Shown piece by piece: positions 14,294 to 54,330 of a stretch of 57,723 bases of DNA; the first letter of the stretch is position 1; the number at the start of each line of letters is the position of its first letter. Position numbers and translations under genes: made by a program. This DNA comes from Candidatus Gottesmanbacteria bacterium. Lineage in GTDB: Bacteria > Patescibacteriota > Microgenomatia > UBA10105. The stretch covers positions 1-57,723 of the forward strand of contig JAHFKJ010000007.1 in NCBI GenBank assembly GCA_023245415.1, given 5' to 3'. The notes beneath the pieces were generated by a model. It was not told the origin of the DNA and searched no databases. It saw only the letters and a list, made by a program, of their open reading frames with translations.

Positions 14294-15277
14294 TTAAGCC
14301 GTCTGTTCTTCCAGCCACTTTTGTGCATCTATAGCCGCCATGCACCCCATGCCGGCTGCAACAACTGCCTGGCGGTAGCGGGGATCGACGCAGTCGCCGG
14401 CTGCAAAAATACCGGGAACTGAAGTCCGGGTTTGCGGTGAGAGCATCTGGTTGATTTTATTTTTATTATCTCTCTGATTTCCCCCATCCCCCTTATCCAA
14501 AACTATATATCCTCTCTTATCGATTTCAATCACACCTTTCAAGAATGCCGTGTTTGGTTGGTGACCGATTGCAAGAAAAAATCCTTGAGTTTGATAAGTT
14601 TCAACCTTGCCGGACTTTGTATCTTTCATGCGAACGCCAGTCACTGCTGCTTCTCCCAAAACCTCTTCAATGATTTTATTCGTGAAAAATGTGATCTTCG
14701 GATTTTTCTTCGTCCGATCCAACATGATCGCCGAGGCCCGAAATTCTTCCCGGCGGTGGATAATAGTCACTTTAGTAGCAAATTTGGTGAGGAAATTAGC
14801 TTCTTCCATAGCCGTATCGCCTCCACCAATAACTACCACTTCTTTGCCTTTGAAAAAGAAACCATCGCAGGTAGCACACGCTGACACGCCTTTGCCCATC
14901 AGCCGCTTTTCAGAAGGCAAATCCAAATACTTTGCTGAAGCTCCCGTTGCCACAATCACCGTTTTTGCCTTAAATTCATTTTTCTCAACAGTTTCAATCA
15001 CAAATCCTTTTTGAAACCCTAAACCCTGAACCCTAGACCCTGATTCCAATTTAATTTCAGTTCCAAACCTTTCCACCTGTTTCTTCATCTCTTCCATAAG
15101 TTGCGGACCCTGAACGCCTGTTGCAAATCCGGGATAATTATCGACTTCAGTGGTGATCGTGAGTTGTCCACCAGACTGAGGACCTGTCAACATGAGCGTC
15201 TTCAAAAACGCCCGCGAAGCATACAAGCCGGCTGTATACCCCGCCGGCCCAGTACCTAATATAACTACATCGTACAT
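14294..15277 (-). CDS. trxB: thioredoxin reductase
   Basis: FAD/NADPH enzyme that reduces thioredoxin in the cytoplasm. FAD-binding GTGPAGYTAGLYASR is at residues 8-22. The redox pair is CATC (C134, C137), the NADPH loop is GGGDTAMEEA, and the C-terminal FAD motif is GIFAAGDC. Length (327 aa) is slightly above the usual 305-320. Two extra low-complexity stretches explain this: about residues 77-91 (CCCTAA-type insert) and about 258-275 (KGDGGNQRDNKNKINQML), which replaces a short loop. Its partner trxA lies 1.3 kb away at 16290. A copy of the structured repeat sits just upstream. Confidence 0.95.
   Translation of the reverse strand: MYDVVILGTGPAGYTAGLYASRAFLKTLMLTGPQSGGQLTITTEVDNYPGFATGVQGPQLMEEMKKQVERFGTEIKLESGSRVQGLGFQKGFVIETVEKNEFKAKTVIVATGASAKYLDLPSEKRLMGKGVSACATCDGFFFKGKEVVVIGGGDTAMEEANFLTKFATKVTIIHRREEFRASAIMLDRTKKNPKITFFTNKIIEEVLGEAAVTGVRMKDTKSGKVETYQTQGFFLAIGHQPNTAFLKGVIEIDKRGYIVLDKGDGGNQRDNKNKINQMLSPQTRTSVPGIFAAGDCVDPRYRQAVVAAGMGCMAAIDAQKWLEEQTA
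15004..15046 (-). repeat. in-frame CCCTAA-like insert in trxB
   Basis: The plus strand reads ACCCTAAACCCTGAACCC and then TAGACCCTGA. It is translated as GSRVQGLGFQK between two conserved blocks of the FAD domain. Same family as the inserts in gdhA and copA. Confidence 0.6.
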
Positions 15278-22529: not shown

Positions 22530-22948
22530 AGCGTGAAGTGGAAAGGGTTAAGGGTGAAGTAAAATGAGCATAAAATCATATAAAGATCTAATCGTTTGGC
22601 AAAAAGCGATGATCTTGGTAAAAGAAATATATCTATTGACGGAATATTTTCCTAAAGATGAATTGTACGGGATAACACAACAAATCCGACGGGCAGTTGT
22701 TTCAATTCCCAGCTGCATTGCAGAAGGATATTTAAGAAAACATAAAAAAGAATATGTACATTTTCTCTCAATTTCTTTAGGTTCGGCGGCAGAACTGGAA
22801 ACACAAATTCTTATTTGTAAAATGTTACCGAAATTTACACAAATTGATTTTACACGCACCGAATCACTGCTAACTGAAGTTTTGAAAATGTTATATGTCA
22901 TGACTAACAAATTAGAAACTTAACGCTTGACGCTTAACCCTTCACGCT
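22530..22948. mobile_element. putative small mobile unit carrying a four-helix-bundle (IVP) gene
   Basis: Imperfect terminal inverted repeats enclose the IVP gene: AGCGTGAAG (22530-22538) with CTTCACGCT (22940-22948), and GGGTTAAG (22545-22552) with CTTAACCC (22933-22940). The unit separates the DsbD-like gene from copZ, whose ATG (22950) is directly after the right arm. Confidence 0.5.
22564..22923 (+). CDS. four-helix-bundle protein (23S rRNA intervening-sequence type, S23/IVP)
   Basis: 119 aa. The family pattern is clear: SYKDLIVWQKAMILVKEIY, then YGITQQIRRAVVSIPSCIAE with the conserved Ile-Pro-Ser-x-Ile-Ala-Glu-Gly core, and FLSISLGSAAELETQIL. First known from intervening sequences in 23S rRNA genes, such proteins are scattered in many genomes and their function is unknown. 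Here the gene lies between inverted repeats within a copper gene cluster. Confidence 0.9.
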   Translation: MSIKSYKDLIVWQKAMILVKEIYLLTEYFPKDELYGITQQIRRAVVSIPSCIAEGYLRKHKKEYVHFLSISLGSAAELETQILICKMLPKFTQIDFTRTESLLTEVLKMLYVMTNKLET

Positions 22949-22949
22949 T

Positions 22950-23159
22950 ATGAAAGCTACACTCAAACTTTCCGGCATGCACTGTACAACGTGTAGTGTC
23001 CTCATCGACACTGTCCTTGAGGAACTGGACGGCGTACATAGAGCTAAAACTTCTTATGCTAAACAACTTGTTGAAGTGGAATATGATGATACAAAAGTAA
23101 ACCTAAAAACTATGGCTCAAGTTATTAAAAATGAAGGCTATGACGTGCAGTCTTCATAA
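22950..23159 (+). CDS. copZ: CopZ-like copper chaperone (heavy-metal-associated domain)
   Basis: 69 aa, one complete ferredoxin-like HMA domain. LKLSGMHCTTCSVLID provides the CxxC copper site, and KNEGYDV is the usual end. It would carry Cu(I) to CopA or to the neighbouring membrane protein. It could also be the detached metal domain of a transporter, but it has a proper start and stop. Confidence 0.85.
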   Translation: MKATLKLSGMHCTTCSVLIDTVLEELDGVHRAKTSYAKQLVEVEYDDTKVNLKTMAQVIKNEGYDVQSS

Positions 23160-27826: not shown

Positions 27827-28099
27827 TTACCTTATTATTTCAAACGCGAGAAATTCTTGCGGTTTTTCCTGCCAGGTAGATTGAATATTTTCAATCCCTG
27901 CTATATCTGGTCCTTTACGACATAACTTAAACATCTTTTTCAGTGATTCTTCACTTCCTTCTGCAACTAATTCAACCGTACCATCTTTCCGATTTTTCAC
28001 CCAGCCGGTAAGCTGCATACTTTGAGCCATTCGTTGAACCCATGCTCTAAATCCCACTCCCTGGACATCACCGAAGATTATAAGATGTATGCGAGTCAT
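27827..28099 (-). CDS. acyP: acylphosphatase
   Basis: 90 aa, the normal length. GDVQGVGFRAWVQ holds the phosphate-binding loop and the catalytic Arg, and GWVKNRKDGTVE holds the catalytic Asn. It hydrolyses carboxyl-phosphate bonds such as acetyl phosphate. Cytoplasmic. Confidence 0.93.
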   Translation of the reverse strand: MTRIHLIIFGDVQGVGFRAWVQRMAQSMQLTGWVKNRKDGTVELVAEGSEESLKKMFKLCRKGPDIAGIENIQSTWQEKPQEFLAFEIIR

Positions 28100-28190
28100 A
28101 TGTGGAAGATATTAAGATATTGGAATACTAGGATACATAGAGAAAAAAACTTCTTAATATCTTAATATCATTGTATCTAAGTATCTATAA
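28100..28190. repeat. AT-rich GATATTAAGATATT palindromic repeat (intergenic copy)
   Basis: Left arm AAGATATTAAGATATTGG..GGATAC and right arm CTTAATATCTTAATATCATT..GTATC form an imperfect inverted repeat. Related copies are at 28467-28592, 35270-35312 and, inside a gene, at 53765-53858. Confidence 0.6.
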
Positions 28191-28463
28191 TTACTCCTCC
28201 CCTTTGCGCAGTCTTGCCATTTTCCACATAAAGATTTTGGCTTTTGACCTGGCATTGCTGTCTTTGGCAAAATTTAACGCTCTTTCCAAAATTGCTCTGG
28301 GCACACTTTTGGCAAACCTGATGTAAATGGCCTTATGTTGATAATCACCCAGCTCTTCTGATAAATAAATCCCGTAGGATTGAAATTCCCGGGAAATATA
28401 CTTGTCTTCTAGGGGATTGAAATTTACGAGAATATCGGAAATGGATTGGGGTTTGGTTAACAT
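28191..28463 (-). CDS. hypothetical small protein
   Basis: 90 aa, soluble, basic C-terminus (ARSKAKIFMWKMARLRKGEE). No family recognised. It lies between two copies of the AT-rich palindromic repeat, so its expression may be independent of its neighbours. Confidence 0.55.
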   Translation of the reverse strand: MLTKPQSISDILVNFNPLEDKYISREFQSYGIYLSEELGDYQHKAIYIRFAKSVPRAILERALNFAKDSNARSKAKIFMWKMARLRKGEE

Positions 28464-28466
28464 AAT

Positions 28467-28592
28467 GAAGATATTAGGATATTTGAGATACTGAGATAGT
28501 AAGATATTGAGATATTAGGATATTAAGAAAATAAGAATAACAATTTTTCCTTATCACTACTTAGTATCTGAGTATCTTTGTATCTTTATATC
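28467..28592. repeat. AT-rich palindromic repeat (intergenic copy 2)
   Basis: GATATTAGGATATT and GAGATATTAGGATATTAAG on the left face TATCTGAGTATCTTTGTATC then TTTATATCTTTAA on the right. Same family as 28100-28190. Confidence 0.6.
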
Positions 28593-28593
28593 T

Positions 28594-29187
28594 TTAATTG
28601 TATTGGTTCATCGCCTTGTCTATGCCTTTTTTTAAGCTTAATTCCAGGGCCTTGGCTGCATGCTTGATCAGCGTCCGGACTGTTCCAGCTTCATTGTCAT
28701 GAAAAGTTGAAACGACATACTTTTCGATACCCTGATGTACCATATTTTGATTCATTGTCTTCTTCTCTTCCACTTTACCCCGACCTACCCCTAATCTAAA
28801 TCTCATAAATCCATCCTCAGCGTTAAATTCTCTCATGATCGATTCCACACCATGATGTCCGGCAGATCCACCTCCCCGGCGTATCCGGATTTTGCCTAGG
28901 GGTAAGTCGATATCGTCATGAATTACCCAAATATCCTCGATATGAATTTTATAAAGATCAGCCAGACGCCTGACTGCAACGCCGGATGCATTCATAAATG
29001 TCAAAGGTTTGACGCAGACAATTTCCGGTGTTTTAAAAACTGCCGCTTTAAAATCCTTTTGTTCGATCCACGTCTTATCTACACTTACCAAATCTCTGAC
29101 CATTTGATCTATTACCATAAATCCGATATTATGCCGAGTTGATGCGTACTTTTCCCCTGGATTACCTAAGCCTGCAATAAGATGCAT
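28594..29187 (-). CDS. pth: peptidyl-tRNA hydrolase
   Basis: 197 aa from the ATG at 29187, which gives the family start MHLIAGLGNPGEKYASTRHN with catalytic His19; an ATG 24 codons upstream is in frame but would add an unrelated peptide. DDIDLPLGKIRIRRGGGSAG and HHGVESI follow as expected. It releases peptides from tRNA, recycling dropped-off peptidyl-tRNAs. Confidence 0.93.
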   Translation of the reverse strand: MHLIAGLGNPGEKYASTRHNIGFMVIDQMVRDLVSVDKTWIEQKDFKAAVFKTPEIVCVKPLTFMNASGVAVRRLADLYKIHIEDIWVIHDDIDLPLGKIRIRRGGGSAGHHGVESIMREFNAEDGFMRFRLGVGRGKVEEKKTMNQNMVHQGIEKYVVSTFHDNEAGTVRTLIKHAAKALELSLKKGIDKAMNQYN

Positions 29188-29188
29188 A

Positions 29189-29527
29189 TTATTTCCCCAA
29201 CTTTTCCAATTGTTTTTCGGCCATATCTCCAACATAGGGAAGCTTAAACATTTCACCATTGTATGCTTTCCACATCATGACTATCCATAAAATAAAACTG
29301 GCCAGGGATAAAAAGAAACTCACAATCCAGCCTAAAATTGGTATTAACACCAGACCTATGTGTACTATAAATAAGCCTCCGGACAGGATCGTTGATTGCA
29401 TTGCGTGGAATCTCACATACTTACTTTCTTTTTCAACCACTAAAAGTATAATACCGGTAATAAATCCCAGTAAATAAGCTAAAGCGCCTTTTAAATTTTC
29501 GTCATTTTTGGTTTTTTCATCCGCCAT
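29189..29527 (-). CDS. DUF4870-type membrane protein
   Basis: 112 aa with three hydrophobic helices. ALAYLLGFITGIILLVVEK then VRFHAMQS is the recognisable DUF4870 (Tic20-like) signature. Function unknown. It ends 1 nt before the start of pth, so probably the same operon. Confidence 0.85.
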   Translation of the reverse strand: MADEKTKNDENLKGALAYLLGFITGIILLVVEKESKYVRFHAMQSTILSGGLFIVHIGLVLIPILGWIVSFFLSLASFILWIVMMWKAYNGEMFKLPYVGDMAEKQLEKLGK

Positions 29528-33425: not shown

Positions 33426-35216
33426 TCAACGTTTGGATTGAGCAGCAAACATAGATTCAAGTTCTTTGACCGATGTCGCATCTTCCGGCCGCTTGTCATC
33501 ACGAAAACGTTCAAGTCTGGGAAAGCGTAGCGCAAAACCGGCGAGCTTTACGCTTAAGGCTTTACCGCTTTTTGACGGTTCCATGACCCGTCCTGCGCTG
33601 TGAACGGCTGAACGCGTAATTTCGTCGCAGCTGACCTCAACAACTAACCCCGGCTTAAGCCAGACATCAGGGGTGAGTAATTTTTCCACATCATATTCCT
33701 GAGGTTTTTCTTTTGTTTCCAGCTTGTGTACTCGTTTATAAAACTCCCGAAACTGCTCATCGGTTAGCCCTGTGCCAATTTTGGAAATTGTAACGTACTT
33801 TTCTTGCTTCAAGTCATAGACGCCGGTCAAAAACTGGCCGACGCCAAAATTAGTCCGTTTTCCCTCACCTTTGGTATACCCCATCACAAGTACGTCTACG
33901 GTATCCATAAGTTTTTTGCTCATCGCCTTTTTAAACTTGATCCAGCTCCATCCGCGCATACCGGCTTCATACAGCCCGTCCAATTTTTTAGCAATAATGC
34001 CTTCGAAATGTTTTCTTATCGAGTCATCAAATACCTCTTCGATCTTTTCATCTGTACTCACAAGTTCTTCCTGGGCGTAAACAATGGTGCTACCAGATTT
34101 AATCACGTCCTGCAATTGTTTTTTTCTTATCCTGTAGGGCTCATCCAGCAAACTTTTGCCATCGATATAAAGAATTTCAAAGGCAAATAATTTAACCGGA
34201 ATTTCAGCTGCCTTTGATTGGATGTCATATTTACGCTTCCTTTGCATGGTTTCCTGAAAGGGAACAAAGACACCTGTTTCGGGGTTGTAGGCTACAATCT
34301 CACCTTCAAAAATCGCCGAATCTGTAGTAATCTGCTTCTTGATCGCTTCACAAATGTCCGGAAACATCTTCGTCATATCTTCCAAATTCCGCGAAAATAA
34401 CTTAATATAATTACTTTTTGAATTTTTAATTCTTTTATAATGAGCTTGCACCCGAAGTCCATCATATTTATATTCCACCGCGCACTGACCGATCTTTTCG
34501 ATAATCTCATGAGCAGAGCTCAACCTATTGGCCCGGGCCATCATGATCGGTGTTCCGGGATTGGGTTTAATATGTGAAAGTCCAGCAATTCCTTTTGCCT
34601 TAACCGTTTCGGCAACAAAAGCCAAATCTGGACGAACATTGTAAGCCTTCTCTAATCTTTCCTTTTCACCCTTACTGCCAACGAGCATCCAGGATAACCC
34701 ATCCAACATCGTCATATCAGAAAATCCCAGACGCAATTTCGCAAGGACTATTCTGACGATATATCGAGCTGATAAACTGTCAACGCTTTTTATGATTTCT
34801 GCCAGCAGTTTAATCTTTTCATCCTGTGATCCTTCACCGGTTGTACTTGCCATTTTGTGCAGTAACGCAAATATGTCAATGACAGTTGTATTTTTGTTTA
34901 TTCTTAATTCTTTATTCTTCACTCTTAATTCCTCGACGGTAAATCCTAAATCCCCTGTCAGCTTAAAAACCTTGGTTACATCCCCAATACTCGCATTTAA
35001 CGCTTCTCCTATTGCCCGGATCACCATTTTATCCGCCATTCCAAATTCCAGAGATTCATATAAAGGCACTACTCTGCCCTGAAGTAAATAGCAAATCTTC
35101 CCAATCGTATCCTGTTCTGCTGCTTTAAATAGAAGCGAGAGCACCACCGTCATTTCGTTGCGGGAAGTGATTTTTTCTAAATTAGCAAAGTACTCGGCAA
35201 GTTTTGCAAATTTCAT
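33426..35216 (-). CDS. lig: ATP-dependent DNA ligase (archaeal type)
   Basis: 596 aa. An N-terminal helical DNA-binding domain precedes the nucleotidyltransferase core with motif I VEYKYDGLRVQAH (Lys adenylation), then LFSRNLEDMTKMFPD, FEGEIVAY, EGIIAKKLDGLYEAG and WIKFKK, and an OB-fold end. It seals nicks using ATP. Family IV ligases of this length are typical of archaea; bacteria use an NAD-dependent LigA, so this is an acquired or additional repair ligase. A low-complexity insert (TTCTTAATTCTTTATTC type) sits at residues about 94-107. Confidence 0.93.
   Translation of the reverse strand: MKFAKLAEYFANLEKITSRNEMTVVLSLLFKAAEQDTIGKICYLLQGRVVPLYESLEFGMADKMVIRAIGEALNASIGDVTKVFKLTGDLGFTVEELRVKNKELRINKNTTVIDIFALLHKMASTTGEGSQDEKIKLLAEIIKSVDSLSARYIVRIVLAKLRLGFSDMTMLDGLSWMLVGSKGEKERLEKAYNVRPDLAFVAETVKAKGIAGLSHIKPNPGTPIMMARANRLSSAHEIIEKIGQCAVEYKYDGLRVQAHYKRIKNSKSNYIKLFSRNLEDMTKMFPDICEAIKKQITTDSAIFEGEIVAYNPETGVFVPFQETMQRKRKYDIQSKAAEIPVKLFAFEILYIDGKSLLDEPYRIRKKQLQDVIKSGSTIVYAQEELVSTDEKIEEVFDDSIRKHFEGIIAKKLDGLYEAGMRGWSWIKFKKAMSKKLMDTVDVLVMGYTKGEGKRTNFGVGQFLTGVYDLKQEKYVTISKIGTGLTDEQFREFYKRVHKLETKEKPQEYDVEKLLTPDVWLKPGLVVEVSCDEITRSAVHSAGRVMEPSKSGKALSVKLAGFALRFPRLERFRDDKRPEDATSVKELESMFAAQSKR
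34891..34935 (-). repeat. in-frame low-complexity insert in the ligase gene
   Basis: TTATTCTTAATTCTTTATTC then TTCACTCTTAATTC: short direct repeats translated as ELRVKNKELRINKN in the N-terminal helical domain, between TGDLGFTVE and TTVIDIFALL. Confidence 0.5.
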
Positions 35217-35269: not shown

Positions 35270-35312
35270 AGATATTCTTAATATCTTAATATCTTTGTAT
35301 CCTAATATCTAG
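35270..35312. repeat. AT-rich palindromic repeat (intergenic, one arm)
   Basis: ATATTCTTAATATCTTAATA then TCTTTGTATCCTAATATC, upstream of the ligase gene and downstream of the Fic gene. Same family as 28100-28190. Confidence 0.5.
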
Positions 35313-35319
35313 TAATTCC

Positions 35320-36435
35320 CTAAGATCTCAATACATAGCGTGCGCCTTTTGTGATGCCTTCCTTGACTATTATGCCTTTCTCAACCAGATCTTTCAACTC
35401 CCTCAGCACCGTATCTTCAGAAACCATCGGAAATAATTCAAAGAAGGCTTTATTTTGTAAGAATCCGGTATGCTGCAGATATTCCACAAGTTTTATCTGC
35501 CGTGGCGTCAGCTGCAGCTGCTGACCGCCAAGCTCTTCTTTAAGCTTGACATCCCGGGAAAGCGACAACACTTTTTCTTTAACACGCGTCAGTTCAATCG
35601 CCAAACCTTCACTAAAATAACCCAACCATTCGGTTAGGTCGCCCATATTTCGGGTCACACTTTGCAGCGCCTCATAATAATGTCCGGGCTCGTGATCATA
35701 AAATTCTTCGAGAGCGAAAAATTTCTTCGTATCATATCCATCTAAAAATAAGGTTAAGGTTGCCACAGCCCGGGCTACACGGCCATTTCCGTCAATAAAC
35801 GGATGGATCCGTACCAGTTCATAATGCGCAATTCCGGCCTTCATCACCGGGTGAACTGTATCGGATGAGGTCGTATTTAAGTAATCCAAAAAAGCCCGGG
35901 TCTGGAAAGGAACTTCGATCGCCGGCGGAGGCCGAAACGTAATTTCCCCAGTAAGGCTATTTTTTACGACTACCTGAGTCACACGATATGTTCCGCCATG
36001 AGGCACATCTAGAATCTTTTCGACAATCAAATTGTGAAGGTACAATATCACTTCCTCTGTTATCTTTTTATGAGCCCGGCCGATAATTTCCCGCGTTTTT
36101 ATATCTTCAATATTATCTACCACATCGCCTTGAGATTGGGGTTGAGAAAACCGGTTTAAAAAATCCAATACCCGGCGGTAATTGAGCACTTCCTGTATAT
36201 CCCGATCCCGTCCCACCACTTCCTGACCTGCCACAACTTTCGCCGCTTCGGTATAATTGAGTTCATTGCCTTCGATATGCGTCCCGTGATGCACCGTACG
36301 AATGATCGCCTCTTCCCGAAATTTCTCCTCCCATGCCGGCACCAGAGGCGCATTCATAATCACTTCCCGCGCCGCCTCTAGAACTCCAATATTCTTGAGA
36401 ATTTTATTTGTTATAGTAAATTTTGGAGTATACAT
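35320..36435 (-). CDS. Fic-family AMP transferase with C-terminal winged helix
   Basis: 371 aa. The Fic core motif HPFIDGNGRVARA is complete, with catalytic His and the phosphate-binding Asn-Gly-Arg. The N-terminal region has HGTHIEGNELN, matching the inhibitory-helix [ST]xxxE[GN] pattern, so it is probably a self-inhibited class II Fic protein. The last 70 residues look like a winged helix (LTPRQIKLVEYL, SEDTVLRELKDLVEKGIIVK). It may modify a partner by AMP transfer and regulate its own gene. Confidence 0.88.
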   Translation of the reverse strand: MYTPKFTITNKILKNIGVLEAAREVIMNAPLVPAWEEKFREEAIIRTVHHGTHIEGNELNYTEAAKVVAGQEVVGRDRDIQEVLNYRRVLDFLNRFSQPQSQGDVVDNIEDIKTREIIGRAHKKITEEVILYLHNLIVEKILDVPHGGTYRVTQVVVKNSLTGEITFRPPPAIEVPFQTRAFLDYLNTTSSDTVHPVMKAGIAHYELVRIHPFIDGNGRVARAVATLTLFLDGYDTKKFFALEEFYDHEPGHYYEALQSVTRNMGDLTEWLGYFSEGLAIELTRVKEKVLSLSRDVKLKEELGGQQLQLTPRQIKLVEYLQHTGFLQNKAFFELFPMVSEDTVLRELKDLVEKGIIVKEGITKGARYVLRS

Positions 36436-36912: not shown

Positions 36913-37920
36913 TTATATACTTATCAATAACTCTTTCATTACCCGGGGAATTTCATCGACTAAATCCGAAGCGTTGAAAAAAGGACCAACACTCTTATAT
37001 AAAGAATCACCAGCTTGTTTGTTAATAAAAGCTCCGGCAATTGTTGCCAAATAGGGATCATTTTTAGTGGCCAGTGCCCCGATCAGTCCTGCCAGGACAT
37101 CACCTGTACCGCCTTTGGTCATCCCCGCATTTCCTCCGTTTATCTTGACACATTCACCCCGGTTGCAGATTTTACCACCGCTGCCTCCCCCGTTACAGGC
37201 TATATCAATCTGTCCTTTAACTAATATAATGCACTGAAAATGTTGTGCTAGAAGTTTAATTTTATCTTCAAACTTTTCCACCTCGCGCCCAACAAAACGT
37301 TCCATATTCGAAACTTTACTCCAAAGCAACTCAAATTCTCCTTGATGCGGAGTCAGAATCGCATTCTTAGGAATCAGTGCCACATCCATCATTTGCAATG
37401 CTCCGGCATCAATCACCCACTGTTTATGCGGAAATTTGTGGAGTAAATAATTGATTAACGCTTCGGTTTGTAAACCTTCGTCAGTAATTTCTTCGAGTTC
37501 TTTTAAGTTTTGAATTGTAAAATGCAATTTTCCCGCCTTCACTTGATTTATAGGATTAGCCCGATCCCGCTTTGGCGGTGATGATTTTTGACTTTTGATT
37601 TTTGATTTCTCTGTGCGCACCATTCCCGGCCCGATCAAAATACAGTCATCCTCTTCAATGTATGATTCAATCTCAGTCCGTGGCACCACTATCCCGTCGC
37701 GAAATTCTTCCTTTTGCCTCAACACCAACTCATTATTTTCCGGCACTGAGCTGTAATGGACTAAATCCACAATTCTCGATGCCACCTTTAACGCCCAGAG
37801 ACTAGCTGCATGGAACAAATGCGACCCGCCAATGATTAAAAGCCGCCCATTCTGGCCTTTATGGGAGTCAGGTGGTGGTAAGTAGAGTGATTTCAGATCA
37901 TTTGTTGTGATAGTCTTCAT
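36913..37920 (-). CDS. nnrD: ADP/ATP-dependent NAD(P)H-hydrate dehydratase
   Basis: 335 aa, the C-terminal YjeF (ribokinase-like) domain alone; the NnrE epimerase part is absent. GRLLIIGGSHLFHAASLWAL, DAGALQMM, LTPHQGEF, and GGNAGMTKGGTGDVLAGLIG (phosphate loop with catalytic Asp) are clear. It repairs hydrated NAD(P)H. A basic low-complexity insert occupies about residues 102-127. Confidence 0.92.
   Translation of the reverse strand: MKTITTNDLKSLYLPPPDSHKGQNGRLLIIGGSHLFHAASLWALKVASRIVDLVHYSSVPENNELVLRQKEEFRDGIVVPRTEIESYIEEDDCILIGPGMVRTEKSKIKSQKSSPPKRDRANPINQVKAGKLHFTIQNLKELEEITDEGLQTEALINYLLHKFPHKQWVIDAGALQMMDVALIPKNAILTPHQGEFELLWSKVSNMERFVGREVEKFEDKIKLLAQHFQCIILVKGQIDIACNGGGSGGKICNRGECVKINGGNAGMTKGGTGDVLAGLIGALATKNDPYLATIAGAFINKQAGDSLYKSVGPFFNASDLVDEIPRVMKELLISI
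37535..37617 (-). repeat. in-frame low-complexity insert in nnrD
   Basis: TTTTTGACTTTTGATTTTTG repeats (37580-37605) next to CCCGATCCCGCTTTGGCGG. Translated as KSKIKSQKSSPPKRDRANPI, where relatives go straight from the GPG-M loop to the next helix. Confidence 0.55.
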
Positions 37921-50030: not shown

Positions 50031-51275
50031 GTGGAACATAAACATAAAATTAATCATCCTCACGCTGTTAATTTAAAACAAATGCTCGTACATGTTATGA
50101 AGCATAAGTATATTTTCGGACTGGCAGCTGCGTTGATTTATGGTGCTCTAGTTTCCGGACTCATCTTCTGGGCAATTCAGCCAACATCATCCTTTACCAG
50201 TCTTATCCGCCTTGCCAAAAATAAAGAAGTCGTCTCACCGATAACCAATGGTGCTTCTCCCAAATCCGTAACCGCAGCCAGTAAAGCTACTTTTATCGCT
50301 ATCACTTCTGATGTGCGCGTCATGCAGCAGGGAAAATGGTTCAAAGCCGAAGCTTCCACGGAAATTTCCCAGGGTGATTCAGTCTATACCGGAGAAAAAT
50401 CACAGGCTGCCATCATGTTTAGCGACGGATCATTGCTTAGACTATCTGAAAACAGCTATATTACTCTAAATCACTACGCAGTAAGTGAAACACAAACACA
50501 AGTCGATCTATACCAGCTGGTTGGCAAAAGCTGGAACCGGGTCCAACACCTGGCAGGCAAAGAGACGCAGTATCAAGTGGAAACTAACACTGCCGTCGCT
50601 ACAGTCAGAGGTACGGCATTCGGGGTTGAAGCTGATTCGATAAATTCTGATATTACGGTCGAAGAAGGCACCGTCAGCGCATCACTGGTTGACCGGACTC
50701 AAAGCGTTCCGGTCACGATGTTTGAAACCCAAGTTGCGAAAAATCAGCTTGCCGCATTTTCCAAAAATCAGCTGTCGCAAATGCAAGCCGCCAAAGCTGA
50801 AAACAAACTTTTTGATACTACCCCCATGCAACCAAAAGCAGTTGCCAAAATGCCGGTTTGGATCTCGGAAAACATCCAGGCGGATATGAAAGTCATGCCG
50901 ATAATCGAAAAGTATAAAGATCAGCCGGTTCCTCTGAAACCGGAAATTATTCTAGAGCTTCGTAATGAAACAAAATCTGATATGACGCCTTCCAATCCTT
51001 CTCCTTCGATAAGCCCCACAATTCTCAAAACTAACCTACAGACCGTGGCTCCGGCTCCGTTACAAATAGCACCCACGCCTACACCCCTTTTGCTGCCGAT
51101 CAACAATAACAATGCAACAATTGACAATATTGCACCCGTTCAATTGGCCCCCACAGCTTCTCCAGCAGTTATCCTCTCACCCACAAGAGCAGTTTTGCCA
51201 GTTTTTATCGCTACTCCAACCCCAACTCCCCTACTTAACATTATTCCATTTAATAACAACGTCAAAATTAAATGA
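50031..51275 (+). CDS. FecR-domain membrane protein
   Basis: 414 aa from a GTG at 50031; an ATG at 50083 would also keep the membrane helix (about residues 28-45). Outside, about 85-215 is a FecR-type domain: SDVRVMQQGKWFKA, GDSVYTGEKSQAAIMFSDGS, and ETNTAVATVRGTAFGVE. The last 150 residues are Pro/Thr/Ser-rich and of low complexity. FecR domains receive or relay signals at the cell surface. The divergent regulator has no membrane part, so a relay is only an inference. Convergent with the GT4 gene, with an 8-nt overlap. Confidence 0.85.
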   Translation: MEHKHKINHPHAVNLKQMLVHVMKHKYIFGLAAALIYGALVSGLIFWAIQPTSSFTSLIRLAKNKEVVSPITNGASPKSVTAASKATFIAITSDVRVMQQGKWFKAEASTEISQGDSVYTGEKSQAAIMFSDGSLLRLSENSYITLNHYAVSETQTQVDLYQLVGKSWNRVQHLAGKETQYQVETNTAVATVRGTAFGVEADSINSDITVEEGTVSASLVDRTQSVPVTMFETQVAKNQLAAFSKNQLSQMQAAKAENKLFDTTPMQPKAVAKMPVWISENIQADMKVMPIIEKYKDQPVPLKPEIILELRNETKSDMTPSNPSPSISPTILKTNLQTVAPAPLQIAPTPTPLLLPINNNNATIDNIAPVQLAPTASPAVILSPTRAVLPVFIATPTPTPLLNIIPFNNNVKIK

Positions 51276-52374
51276 CTTTAAATACAAACTCACTCATTTT
51301 TTTGATAAAAACTTCTTTGTTAAACACCTGCCCCCATTTTGTACAATCTAACGTCCAATCACGTTTTAACGCTAAAAATTGTTTTAAGACTTGAGCAAGC
51401 GCTTCTGTCTCCGGCTTTTCGAAAAATAAGCCGGTCTTGCCTGTAATTACTGTTTCCATCACACCTCCCTGCTTAAGAGCAATCACTGGAATACCATTTT
51501 GCATCGCTTCGACGGGCACCATGCCAAAATCTTCTTCCAGGGCGCAAAATATCAACGCTTTGGCTCTTGTGTATAATCCTTGCAACACATTATCGGAAAC
51601 ATTGCCCAATAATTCGATCGTTGGCCCGGCAATTGAACGTAAATATTTTTCTTCTTTACCTGTCCCAATTATTTTTAAGGGCAACTTAAGCAAATTACAC
51701 GCGCCAATCGCCAAATCAACCCGCTTGGCATACGTCAATCTGCCAACACTTAAAAAATATGATTTATTCTTTATTTGAGAATTTGAAATTTGAAATTTGA
51801 AATTTGAAATTGTAACCGGTGGATATATCACTTCTGCTTCCCGACGATAAAACTTTTGGATTCGGCGTTTTGTCTCCTGGGAATTTGCGATAATATAATC
51901 AACTCTCTGCATAACCGAGTAGTCATAAATTCGTAAAAAAGGATTTATAACTCCGGCATATGCCCGAATCAGCGAATTTTTTTGAGTCGATCCGGTTGCA
52001 TAACCGTATAAATTCCGCGGCGGGTGGTGAATATATGAAATATGCACTTGTCCCGGATGCGTGATTACTCCCCGGCTGATAAACCAACCTGATGATGAAA
52101 TTACTACGTCAAATCCGCTCAAATCCAGACTTTCCCACACCAAGGGAGTCAGGAAACGCAGGGGTGAATGGAATTTCCTCATGCACCATATATTTCCCAC
52201 AGGACTCACACGAATGTCCCAGGATTTAAATCTCTCCCCCATCTCACCCAAATTTCCCCAGTCTACAAACGCCGTATATAGAGGCGCTTGCGGATACATT
52301 TCATGAAGCACCTCAACTACCCGCTCGGCTCCCCCATATTCCCGTAAATAATCATGTACCAATGCAACTTTCAT
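51268..52374 (-). CDS. family 4 glycosyltransferase
   Basis: 368 aa. KVALVHDYLREYGGAERVVE is the donor-independent N-terminal lobe, and the C-terminal lobe has SVGRLTYAKRVDLAIGA, EEDFGMVPVEAMQNGIPVIA (the ExxxxxxxE catalytic motif) and GGVMETVITGKTG. It transfers an activated sugar to a cell-surface precursor. A TTTGAAATTTGAAA-type insert lies at residues about 188-200. The start overlaps the stop of the HD gene by 4 nt. Confidence 0.93.
   Translation of the reverse strand: MKVALVHDYLREYGGAERVVEVLHEMYPQAPLYTAFVDWGNLGEMGERFKSWDIRVSPVGNIWCMRKFHSPLRFLTPLVWESLDLSGFDVVISSSGWFISRGVITHPGQVHISYIHHPPRNLYGYATGSTQKNSLIRAYAGVINPFLRIYDYSVMQRVDYIIANSQETKRRIQKFYRREAEVIYPPVTISNFKFQISNSQIKNKSYFLSVGRLTYAKRVDLAIGACNLLKLPLKIIGTGKEEKYLRSIAGPTIELLGNVSDNVLQGLYTRAKALIFCALEEDFGMVPVEAMQNGIPVIALKQGGVMETVITGKTGLFFEKPETEALAQVLKQFLALKRDWTLDCTKWGQVFNKEVFIKKMSEFVFKVI
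51765..51812 (-). repeat. in-frame TTTGAAA tandem repeat in the GT4 gene
   Basis: About four copies of the 10-mer ATTTGAAATT. Translated as ISNFKFQISNSQIKNK between the two lobes of the enzyme. Related wording occurs in the intergenic stretch at about 54285-54300. Confidence 0.6.
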
Positions 52375-53207: not shown

Positions 53208-54218
53208 TTAAAACAATTCCATTTGCTTTTTCGAATCTATATTTGGATTTTTACTCTCAAGCGTTTTTTTACTCATCTCACTAAGACGGCGTAAAAGAGT
53301 CTTAAATCCTAAGCTTCCAAACACATCAATCACCTCTCTGGTTAACAAATCGTGTAACTGGGTTGGGGAAATTTGAAATTTAAGCGGCACATCGACTACG
53401 ACAGTCGCCAGTTTATACGAAAGCAGCGCCTTTTCTTTATCGCTTATTAATTTCTCCCTAACGCCTGGGTTAGTAACTTTTTCTATATGCTTATACAAGT
53501 TCTCTACACTATTAAATTTATTCAGCAGCGCTATTGCAGTTTTAGGGCCAATTCCCGCTACTCCCGGATAATTATCAGAAGGATCTCCGGCTAACGCTTT
53601 GTAATCTGGTATTTGCTCAGGACGCACTCCCATCCGTTCCTCTGCTTCTTTTTTTCCGAATATTTTCGAATTGGACAAACCTTTCACCGGCATATATAGC
53701 TTCACCCGTTCGTTAACCAGCTGCAGCAAATCCCGATCCCCGGTAACAATAACTACCTGGATATTCCGATATTCAGATACTGAGATATCAGGAGAAGGAC
53801 TATTTTCTTTCTGTTTATTCTTAGTATCTTTGTATCTTAATATCTTAGTATCTTGACAAGCTTGTTTTACAATCGTCCCCAATACATCATCTGCTTCATA
53901 CCCGTCTTTTTCATAAATTGGAATGCGCATCGCCTTTATAACTTTATGAACTTTTTGAACTTGCGATACTAGCGCATCATCCATTTCCGGCCGCTGGGCC
54001 TGATATTCTTTAAACAGCTGTTTACGGAACGTGGGCTTGGGCCGGTCAAAAGCGACTGCCAGATGCGTTGGCTTGAGATCCTCAACGACTCGAAGAAGCA
54101 GCGCCACAAATCCATAGACCGCGTTTGTCGGTTCTCCCTGGTCATTGGTCCTGGGAGGAAGAGCATGATATGCCCGGTGTAAAATAGCGTTGCCCTCGAG
54201 TAATACGAGTCGAGACAT
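53208..54218 (-). CDS. PolA-type 5'-3' exonuclease (stand-alone)
   Basis: 336 aa. RLVLLEGNAILHRAYHALPP, AVFDRP-like AVAFDRPKPTFRK, GYEADDVLGT, VVIVTGDRDLLQLV and GDPSDNYPGVAGIGPKTA give the full FEN/PolA exonuclease set with its metal-binding Asp residues. The polymerase domain is missing. It removes RNA primers and flaps. A translated AT-rich palindromic element lies at residues about 120-151, between the first catalytic half and the TGD motif. The structured repeat lies directly downstream. Confidence 0.93.
   Translation of the reverse strand: MSRLVLLEGNAILHRAYHALPPRTNDQGEPTNAVYGFVALLLRVVEDLKPTHLAVAFDRPKPTFRKQLFKEYQAQRPEMDDALVSQVQKVHKVIKAMRIPIYEKDGYEADDVLGTIVKQACQDTKILRYKDTKNKQKENSPSPDISVSEYRNIQVVIVTGDRDLLQLVNERVKLYMPVKGLSNSKIFGKKEAEERMGVRPEQIPDYKALAGDPSDNYPGVAGIGPKTAIALLNKFNSVENLYKHIEKVTNPGVREKLISDKEKALLSYKLATVVVDVPLKFQISPTQLHDLLTREVIDVFGSLGFKTLLRRLSEMSKKTLESKNPNIDSKKQMELF
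53765..53858 (-). repeat. in-frame AT-rich palindromic element in the PolA-type exonuclease gene
   Basis: Left arm GATATTCAGATACTGAGATA (53769-53788) and right arm TTAGTATCTTTGTATCTTAA (53821-53840) and further are imperfect inverse copies. The same family is intergenic at 28100, 28467 and 35270. Translated as KILRYKDTKNKQKENSPSPD and so on, between EADDVLGTIVKQA and VVIVTGDRD, which are almost adjacent in relatives. Confidence 0.75.
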
Positions 54219-54221
54219 AAA

Positions 54222-54330
54222 TAAATACCAATAAGTGCCAATGTCAAATATCCAATAAATACCAAAGTATTGGTAATTATTTGTATATATTTGAAATTTG
54301 ATTATTTGTGGTGATTTTTCCTATTTTACC
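54222..54330. repeat. AT-rich intergenic low-complexity stretch with small palindrome
   Basis: CCAATAAATACCAATAAG-like units and the palindrome TACCAA-AGTA-TTGGTA (about 54262-54277), plus ATTTGAAATTTGATTATTTG. It lies upstream of the exonuclease gene and downstream of the VWA gene. Confidence 0.4.

Follow-up and report, generated by a model that had tools for sequence, protein, structure and literature searches.

The palindromic elements of the window

The window (the whole analysed stretch of 57,723 nucleotides) contains a gene for a PolA-type 5'-3' exonuclease in which a palindromic element is read in frame. Three further elements of the same GATA/TATC family are found between genes (Table 1). 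Each element is built from an 8-bp module, GATA-YTRR, that is repeated three to eight times and followed by a loop of about 20-40 nt and by the inverse array (NNNN-TATC). The arms can thus be written as (GATANNNN)n and (NNNNTATC)n with a period of 8 bp, and the total length is about 50-125 bp. In the window, the array of one arm reads TATCNNNN and that of the opposite arm GATANNNN. A period of 8 was called by Tandem Repeats Finder at 28468, 28560, 35276 and 53819.

Table 1. Positions of the elements, of their neighboring genes and of other repeats
Feature	Position	Strand	Remarks
PolA-type 5'-3' exonuclease ORF	53208..54218	-	PF02739 + PF01367
In-frame element, exonuclease	53760..53852	-	4 GATA units, loop ~30 nt, 4 TATC units; peptide DTKILRYKDTKNKQKENSPSPDISVSEYRNI on the - strand
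Intergenic element	28470..28592		fills the junction of pth and the first 90-aa ORF
Intergenic element	28108..28185		fills the junction of the two 90-aa ORFs
Degenerate intergenic copy	35271..35309		mostly one arm; between Fic/DOC and the ligase gene
Peptidyl-tRNA hydrolase (pth) gene	28594..29259	-	
First 90-aa ORF	28191..28463	-	
Next 90-aa ORF	27827..28099	-	
Fic/DOC gene	35320..36435	-	
ATP-dependent DNA ligase gene	33426..35216	-	
Glycosyltransferase gene	51268..52374	-	
7-bp array (ATTTGAA)5	51773..51811		in frame in the glycosyltransferase gene
Imperfect AT-rich palindrome	54220..54290		directly upstream of the exonuclease start
Heptamer array, AAACCCT	15014..15043		degenerate
Heptamer array, CTTAACG	22919..22950		degenerate
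Heptamer array, ATTCTTA	34897..34931		degenerate
Heptamer array, TGATTTT	37582..37608		degenerate
One-armed copies outside the window	C28:29365, C53:2896, C57:3563, C59:7608, C59:9200		pattern search
Other copies outside the window	C1:29510, C3:35170, C14:22231, C17:3744, C33:622, C38:55658, C40:17653		pattern search

The first-pass annotation had placed one recurring unit at 28100, 28467, 35270 and 53765. It was confirmed that these four places belong to one family, with the limits corrected as in Table 1, so the observation is real, but it was described too narrowly. The 20-mer that had been quoted as the unit, TATCTTAATATCTTTGTATC, occurs exactly only once in the window (at 35282), and the recurrent part is the array with its 8-bp period. 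Among 127 units from 11 genomes, the first spacer base is a pyrimidine in 125 and the second is T in 104, the third is mostly A or G and the last depends on the lineage; these counts do not measure the conservation of GATA, which the search pattern prescribed.

In the exonuclease, the element adds about 31 residues between the segments EADDVLGT and VVIVTGDRD, at the break point of the Pfam, Taq and mycobacterial-type (solved) Pol I alignments. The insert is absent in 29 of 29 relatives and was found only in the window's own genome among the 30 sequences compared. The first-pass annotation had described the two segments as split by the element but almost adjacent in relatives. The split stands, and the adjacency holds only in part: the aligned segment spans 32-59 residues in the relatives versus 63 here, with 43 and 45 in the two genomes of the same family (G001 and G002). 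In G027, the same loop is occupied by a different coding palindrome (FPRKRES...PDQVGDD). Together with the variable length, this palindrome marks the loop as a permissive site, a caveat to the otherwise valid claim that the insertion does not reflect evolution specific to this gene.

Copies in the genome and its relatives

The window's own genome (G000) comprises 1.55 Mb in 60 contigs. Its size and gene content, together with the uniformly small genomes of its relatives, point to Patescibacteria. The pattern TATC-N4-TATC-N4-TATC matches it exactly 38 times, compared to 0 for the reversed control, and a two-armed pattern matches 9 times per strand, again compared to 0. The arrays are thus far above chance. 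After merging, 16 copies remain, four in the window and 12 outside, five of the latter being one-armed. With these roughly 12 additional copies, and with no other examined genome having this insert in the exonuclease, neither of the two outcomes that the first-pass annotation had named as refuting its reading was observed. A weak match within a long ORF (C28:64036) was treated as chance.

Most copies are located at gene junctions, often between co-directional genes. Besides the junctions of pth and the 90-aa ORFs, they occupy those of a 2-oxoacid oxidoreductase subunit pair, of UDG and RNase J, and of dnaX and YbaB, as well as a position upstream of nusG (names of junction genes without a Pfam match were read from the sequence). 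Some copies overlap a gene end, so that the stop codon or a short tail at the C terminus comes from the element. Three copies lie inside ORFs, namely in the exonuclease, in a ComF gene (immediately ahead of IDDVWTTG) and in a FemAB-family gene, where comparison to a solved homologue did not reveal a clean insert. On inspection by eye, no two copies of this genome share a loop, and no recent identical copies were found among them.

In their only stop-free sense frame, coding copies with two arms encode (K)ILRYYDIKK-loop-ISQYPNI or a close variant, and the peptide usually has an ISQYPNI-like end. These copies are open by selection of the set, as they were chosen for lying in ORFs. For the intergenic copies, the canonical frame is open in 0 of 18; their stops mostly fall in octamers where they can be predicted (RY*D, S*Y). 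It follows that no ORF belongs to the element itself, and that the coding copies which survive are set apart from the rest by the units prone to stops.

A covariance model derived from 20 elements was run on 374 genomes of the same class and gave matches in 19 of them (~5%). With both strands included, 13 matches were counted in G000, 8 in G079 and 6 each in G118, G172 and G209; the model detected no copy in G001 and G002 of the same family. Outside the class, elements of the same type occur sporadically in the phylum sample (G707, G646, G404 and G625). The pattern also picked up palindromes in G183, G211, G027, G271, G356, G014, G010 and G086, which are composed of other units and were left out.

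Coding copies were also found in other proteins. TopA carries one at the same site in G100 and G306, in degenerate form in G277 and as a half copy in G179. The copies in TsaD (G079) and RsmH (G305) correspond to clean gaps of about 20-25 residues in the alignments to the solved TsaD and RsmH. A nucleotidyltransferase-like protein of 293 aa without a Pfam match has the element at one loop in four genomes (G079, G334, G345 and G363), and further in-frame copies are present in O-antigen-ligase-like proteins (G172 and G307), in a MerR-type HTH protein (G172) and in ComF (G022). The TsaD of G079 (L169) contains, besides the GATA element, a second coding palindrome (VVPAQAGIHKNN..HIDSRFRGND), which resembles the CGTC/dRS3 type.

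Turnover within a genus and tests for a mobilizing mechanism

The presence of the element at fixed loci was followed in the genus g75 (12 species, 10-11 of which were examined per junction). The element between rnpA and yidD occurs in 1 of 11 species (G172 only), the one before the RNase J gene in 2 of 10 (G209 and G307) and the one after uvrC in 2 of 11 (G209 and G341). The O-antigen-ligase element of G172 lies in another loop than that of G307; in congeners, these loops contain other coding palindromes (CHPEGKARRI..RFFVSLRMT; NRFWSR..QND) or are short. The sister species possess several unrelated palindrome families or nothing at the junctions of RNase J and uvrC (L318-L327, L258-L280), which indicates rapid turnover at fixed sites.

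The units themselves also differ between lineages. The fourth spacer base is A in 77% of the units of G000 and in 5% of those of G079, and the spacer dialect is shared more within than between lineages (label permutation, p < 1/5000; related g75 loci contribute, so the data are not independent). The presence/absence within the genus and the lineage-specific dialects support insertion and a lineage-restricted spread of the family.

Signs of a mobilizing mechanism were searched for in the flanks. Direct repeats of 4-6 nt, as expected for a target-site duplication, do not exceed the frequency seen in shuffled flank pairs, and the REP tags GTAG, CTAC, CGTC or GACG occur in only 2 of 50 flanks. The flanks of a few kb around the seven Y1_Tnp (PF01797) genes of G000 contain no GATA/TATC element, and a RAYT/Y1 transposase was rejected as linked mobilizer. 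The empty-site alleles are too diverged, and there is no conspecific of G000 among the genomes, so that no base-exact empty junction was obtained. From the presence of the unit both between and inside genes, the first-pass annotation had argued for active insertion. Of this, the lineage-specific spread by insertion is upheld by the g75 loci and the dialects, while a currently active transposition mechanism is not supported, given that neither target duplications nor shared loops nor a linked mobilizing gene were found. On contig C38 of G000 (L138:2393-2443), a 23-nt inverted repeat (TAGGGTTCAACCCTAAT..) is located close to a Y1_Tnp gene; it may represent a separate, transposase-associated palindrome outside the GATA family.

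Explanations and comparison to known systems

The best explanation, with a probability of roughly 0.6, is a family of non-autonomous palindromic elements with tandem GATAYTRR arms that spreads within lineages into gene junctions and exposed protein loops. Its evidence comprises the family identity, the copies throughout the genome, the in-frame placement between intact conserved segments, the absence from close relatives, the patchy occurrence at fixed loci among species of one genus and the lineage-specific unit consensus. The elements would settle where a compact genome tolerates them, at gene junctions (most copies) and in exposed loops of proteins. Within a loop, an in-frame copy without stops would survive as a translated extension of 20-30 residues. 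The spread may proceed by copying with the help of a trans-acting enzyme, perhaps one that recognizes single-stranded hairpins. The inserts are probably neutral or mildly costly, and the insert-bearing proteins would presumably stay active. The sharing of a dialect could, however, also result from a lineage-specific binding protein or from mutation bias.

Alternatively, each element could have grown in place by 8-bp replication slippage and hairpin template switching, the likeness between loci then being convergence on a favored unit. Some copies do have one arm only, and the number of units varies. Degenerate 7-8-bp arrays with other sequences exist elsewhere in the window, and sister species show, at the junctions in question, AT-rich palindromes that contain short repeated units but differ in sequence. 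The absence of a target duplication is also in line with such an origin. Template switching, however, predicts that the two arms of an element pair better with each other than with foreign arms. Own arms gave a mean of -16.7 kcal/mol versus -17.5 kcal/mol for arms of different elements (permutation p 0.91); arm co-evolution is thus absent, which argues against the copying of one arm from the other as well as against selection on each element's own hairpin. The result is compatible with copies of a palindromic consensus that decayed independently of one another, or with a protein that recognizes each unit. As one GATAYTRR consensus moreover recurs across families, an origin in place is considered unlikely.

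The same lack of element-specific arm complementarity weighs on the idea of a functional RNA hairpin under selection (an intercistronic stabilizer, processing site or attenuator), with the coding copies as tolerated side effects. The location of most copies at junctions between genes, often co-directional ones, would suit such a role, as would the position before the gene for RNase J, seen in G000 as well as in G209/G307, and the folding of some copies, which is better than that of shuffles (z -4.7 for 28470..28592 and -2.6 for the exonuclease copy). Yet most congeners lack the element or have unrelated palindromes at the same junctions, and an Rfam search of the window gave no match; this role appears quite improbable. 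Another reading, in which the GATA/TATC arrays are clusters of DNA sites bound by a regulatory, segregation or nucleoid protein, is very improbable. The constant spacing of 8 bp would fit, as would the first spacer base, which is far more constant than the last (with GATA fixed by the search), but there are only about 16 places per genome, some in coding genes and patchy between congeners, and no candidate protein was identified. A broader proposal can be put forward tentatively: the GATA family would be one dialect of a general class of rapidly turned-over palindromes in Patescibacteria, all made of 7-8-bp modules. Since sister species have families of different sequence at shared junctions and protein loops, a common inserting or generating mechanism may write coding extensions into essential proteins of these streamlined genomes.

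Several known systems resemble the GATA family. The Rickettsia palindromic elements (RPEs) are palindromes of about 100 bp that occur between genes and in frame in conserved genes with a recurrent short peptide, and analogous protein-coding palindromes are described for Wolbachia (PMC2229807, PMC10969869). The GATA family is likewise found in both contexts, with a recurrent short peptide in conserved proteins. Its arms of tandem 8-bp modules, however, are a build that the consulted RPE descriptions do not mention, and its intergenic copies have no intrinsic ORF. By analogy, the best reading is that the GATA family would work like the RPEs with a different architecture.

The GTAG/CGTC-tagged REPs (RAYT-associated; dRS3; RPE-4 and RPE-6) are palindromes located at the ends of genes or within them, and replication/repair genes are among their coding targets (PMC3733652). 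GATA copies also occur in both kinds of place, but they differ in their lack of an end tag and of a Y1 transposase link and in their low copy number. The TAACTGA heptamer repeats of Beggiatoaceae and cyanobacteria are short tandem units, mostly intergenic with some overlapping ORFs, and patchy across lineages (PMC4679880). The GATA family shares the short tandem units, the mostly intergenic location and the patchy distribution, but consists of degenerate octamers in facing inverted arms instead of exact heptamers in direct orientation. MITEs are short and non-autonomous, have inverted termini and can fuse in frame with genes (PMC10969869). In contrast, the GATA family has no target-site duplication, and no parent transposon was found in the Y1_Tnp search of the few-kb flanks. 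A published description of the GATA family was not found in a full-text literature search, with most subscription journals outside its coverage.

Coding palindromes are well known from Rickettsia and Wolbachia. Their occurrence, with a different build, inside TopA, TsaD, RsmH and the PolA-type exonuclease of Patescibacteria shows that intracellular alphaproteobacteria are not the only bacteria with this process. The elements also provide many natural pairs of alleles with and without insert, on which insertion, tolerance and the fate of the peptide can be tested.

Other repeats were observed in the window. The (ATTTGAA)5 array of the glycosyltransferase gene encodes TISNFKFQISNSQIKNKS before YFLSVGR and is a second coding repeat, unrelated to the GATA element. 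The imperfect palindrome next to the exonuclease start is made of ACCAATA/TATTGGT-like repeated units. In the four heptamer arrays, the unit differs each time and the degeneracy is of the same kind.
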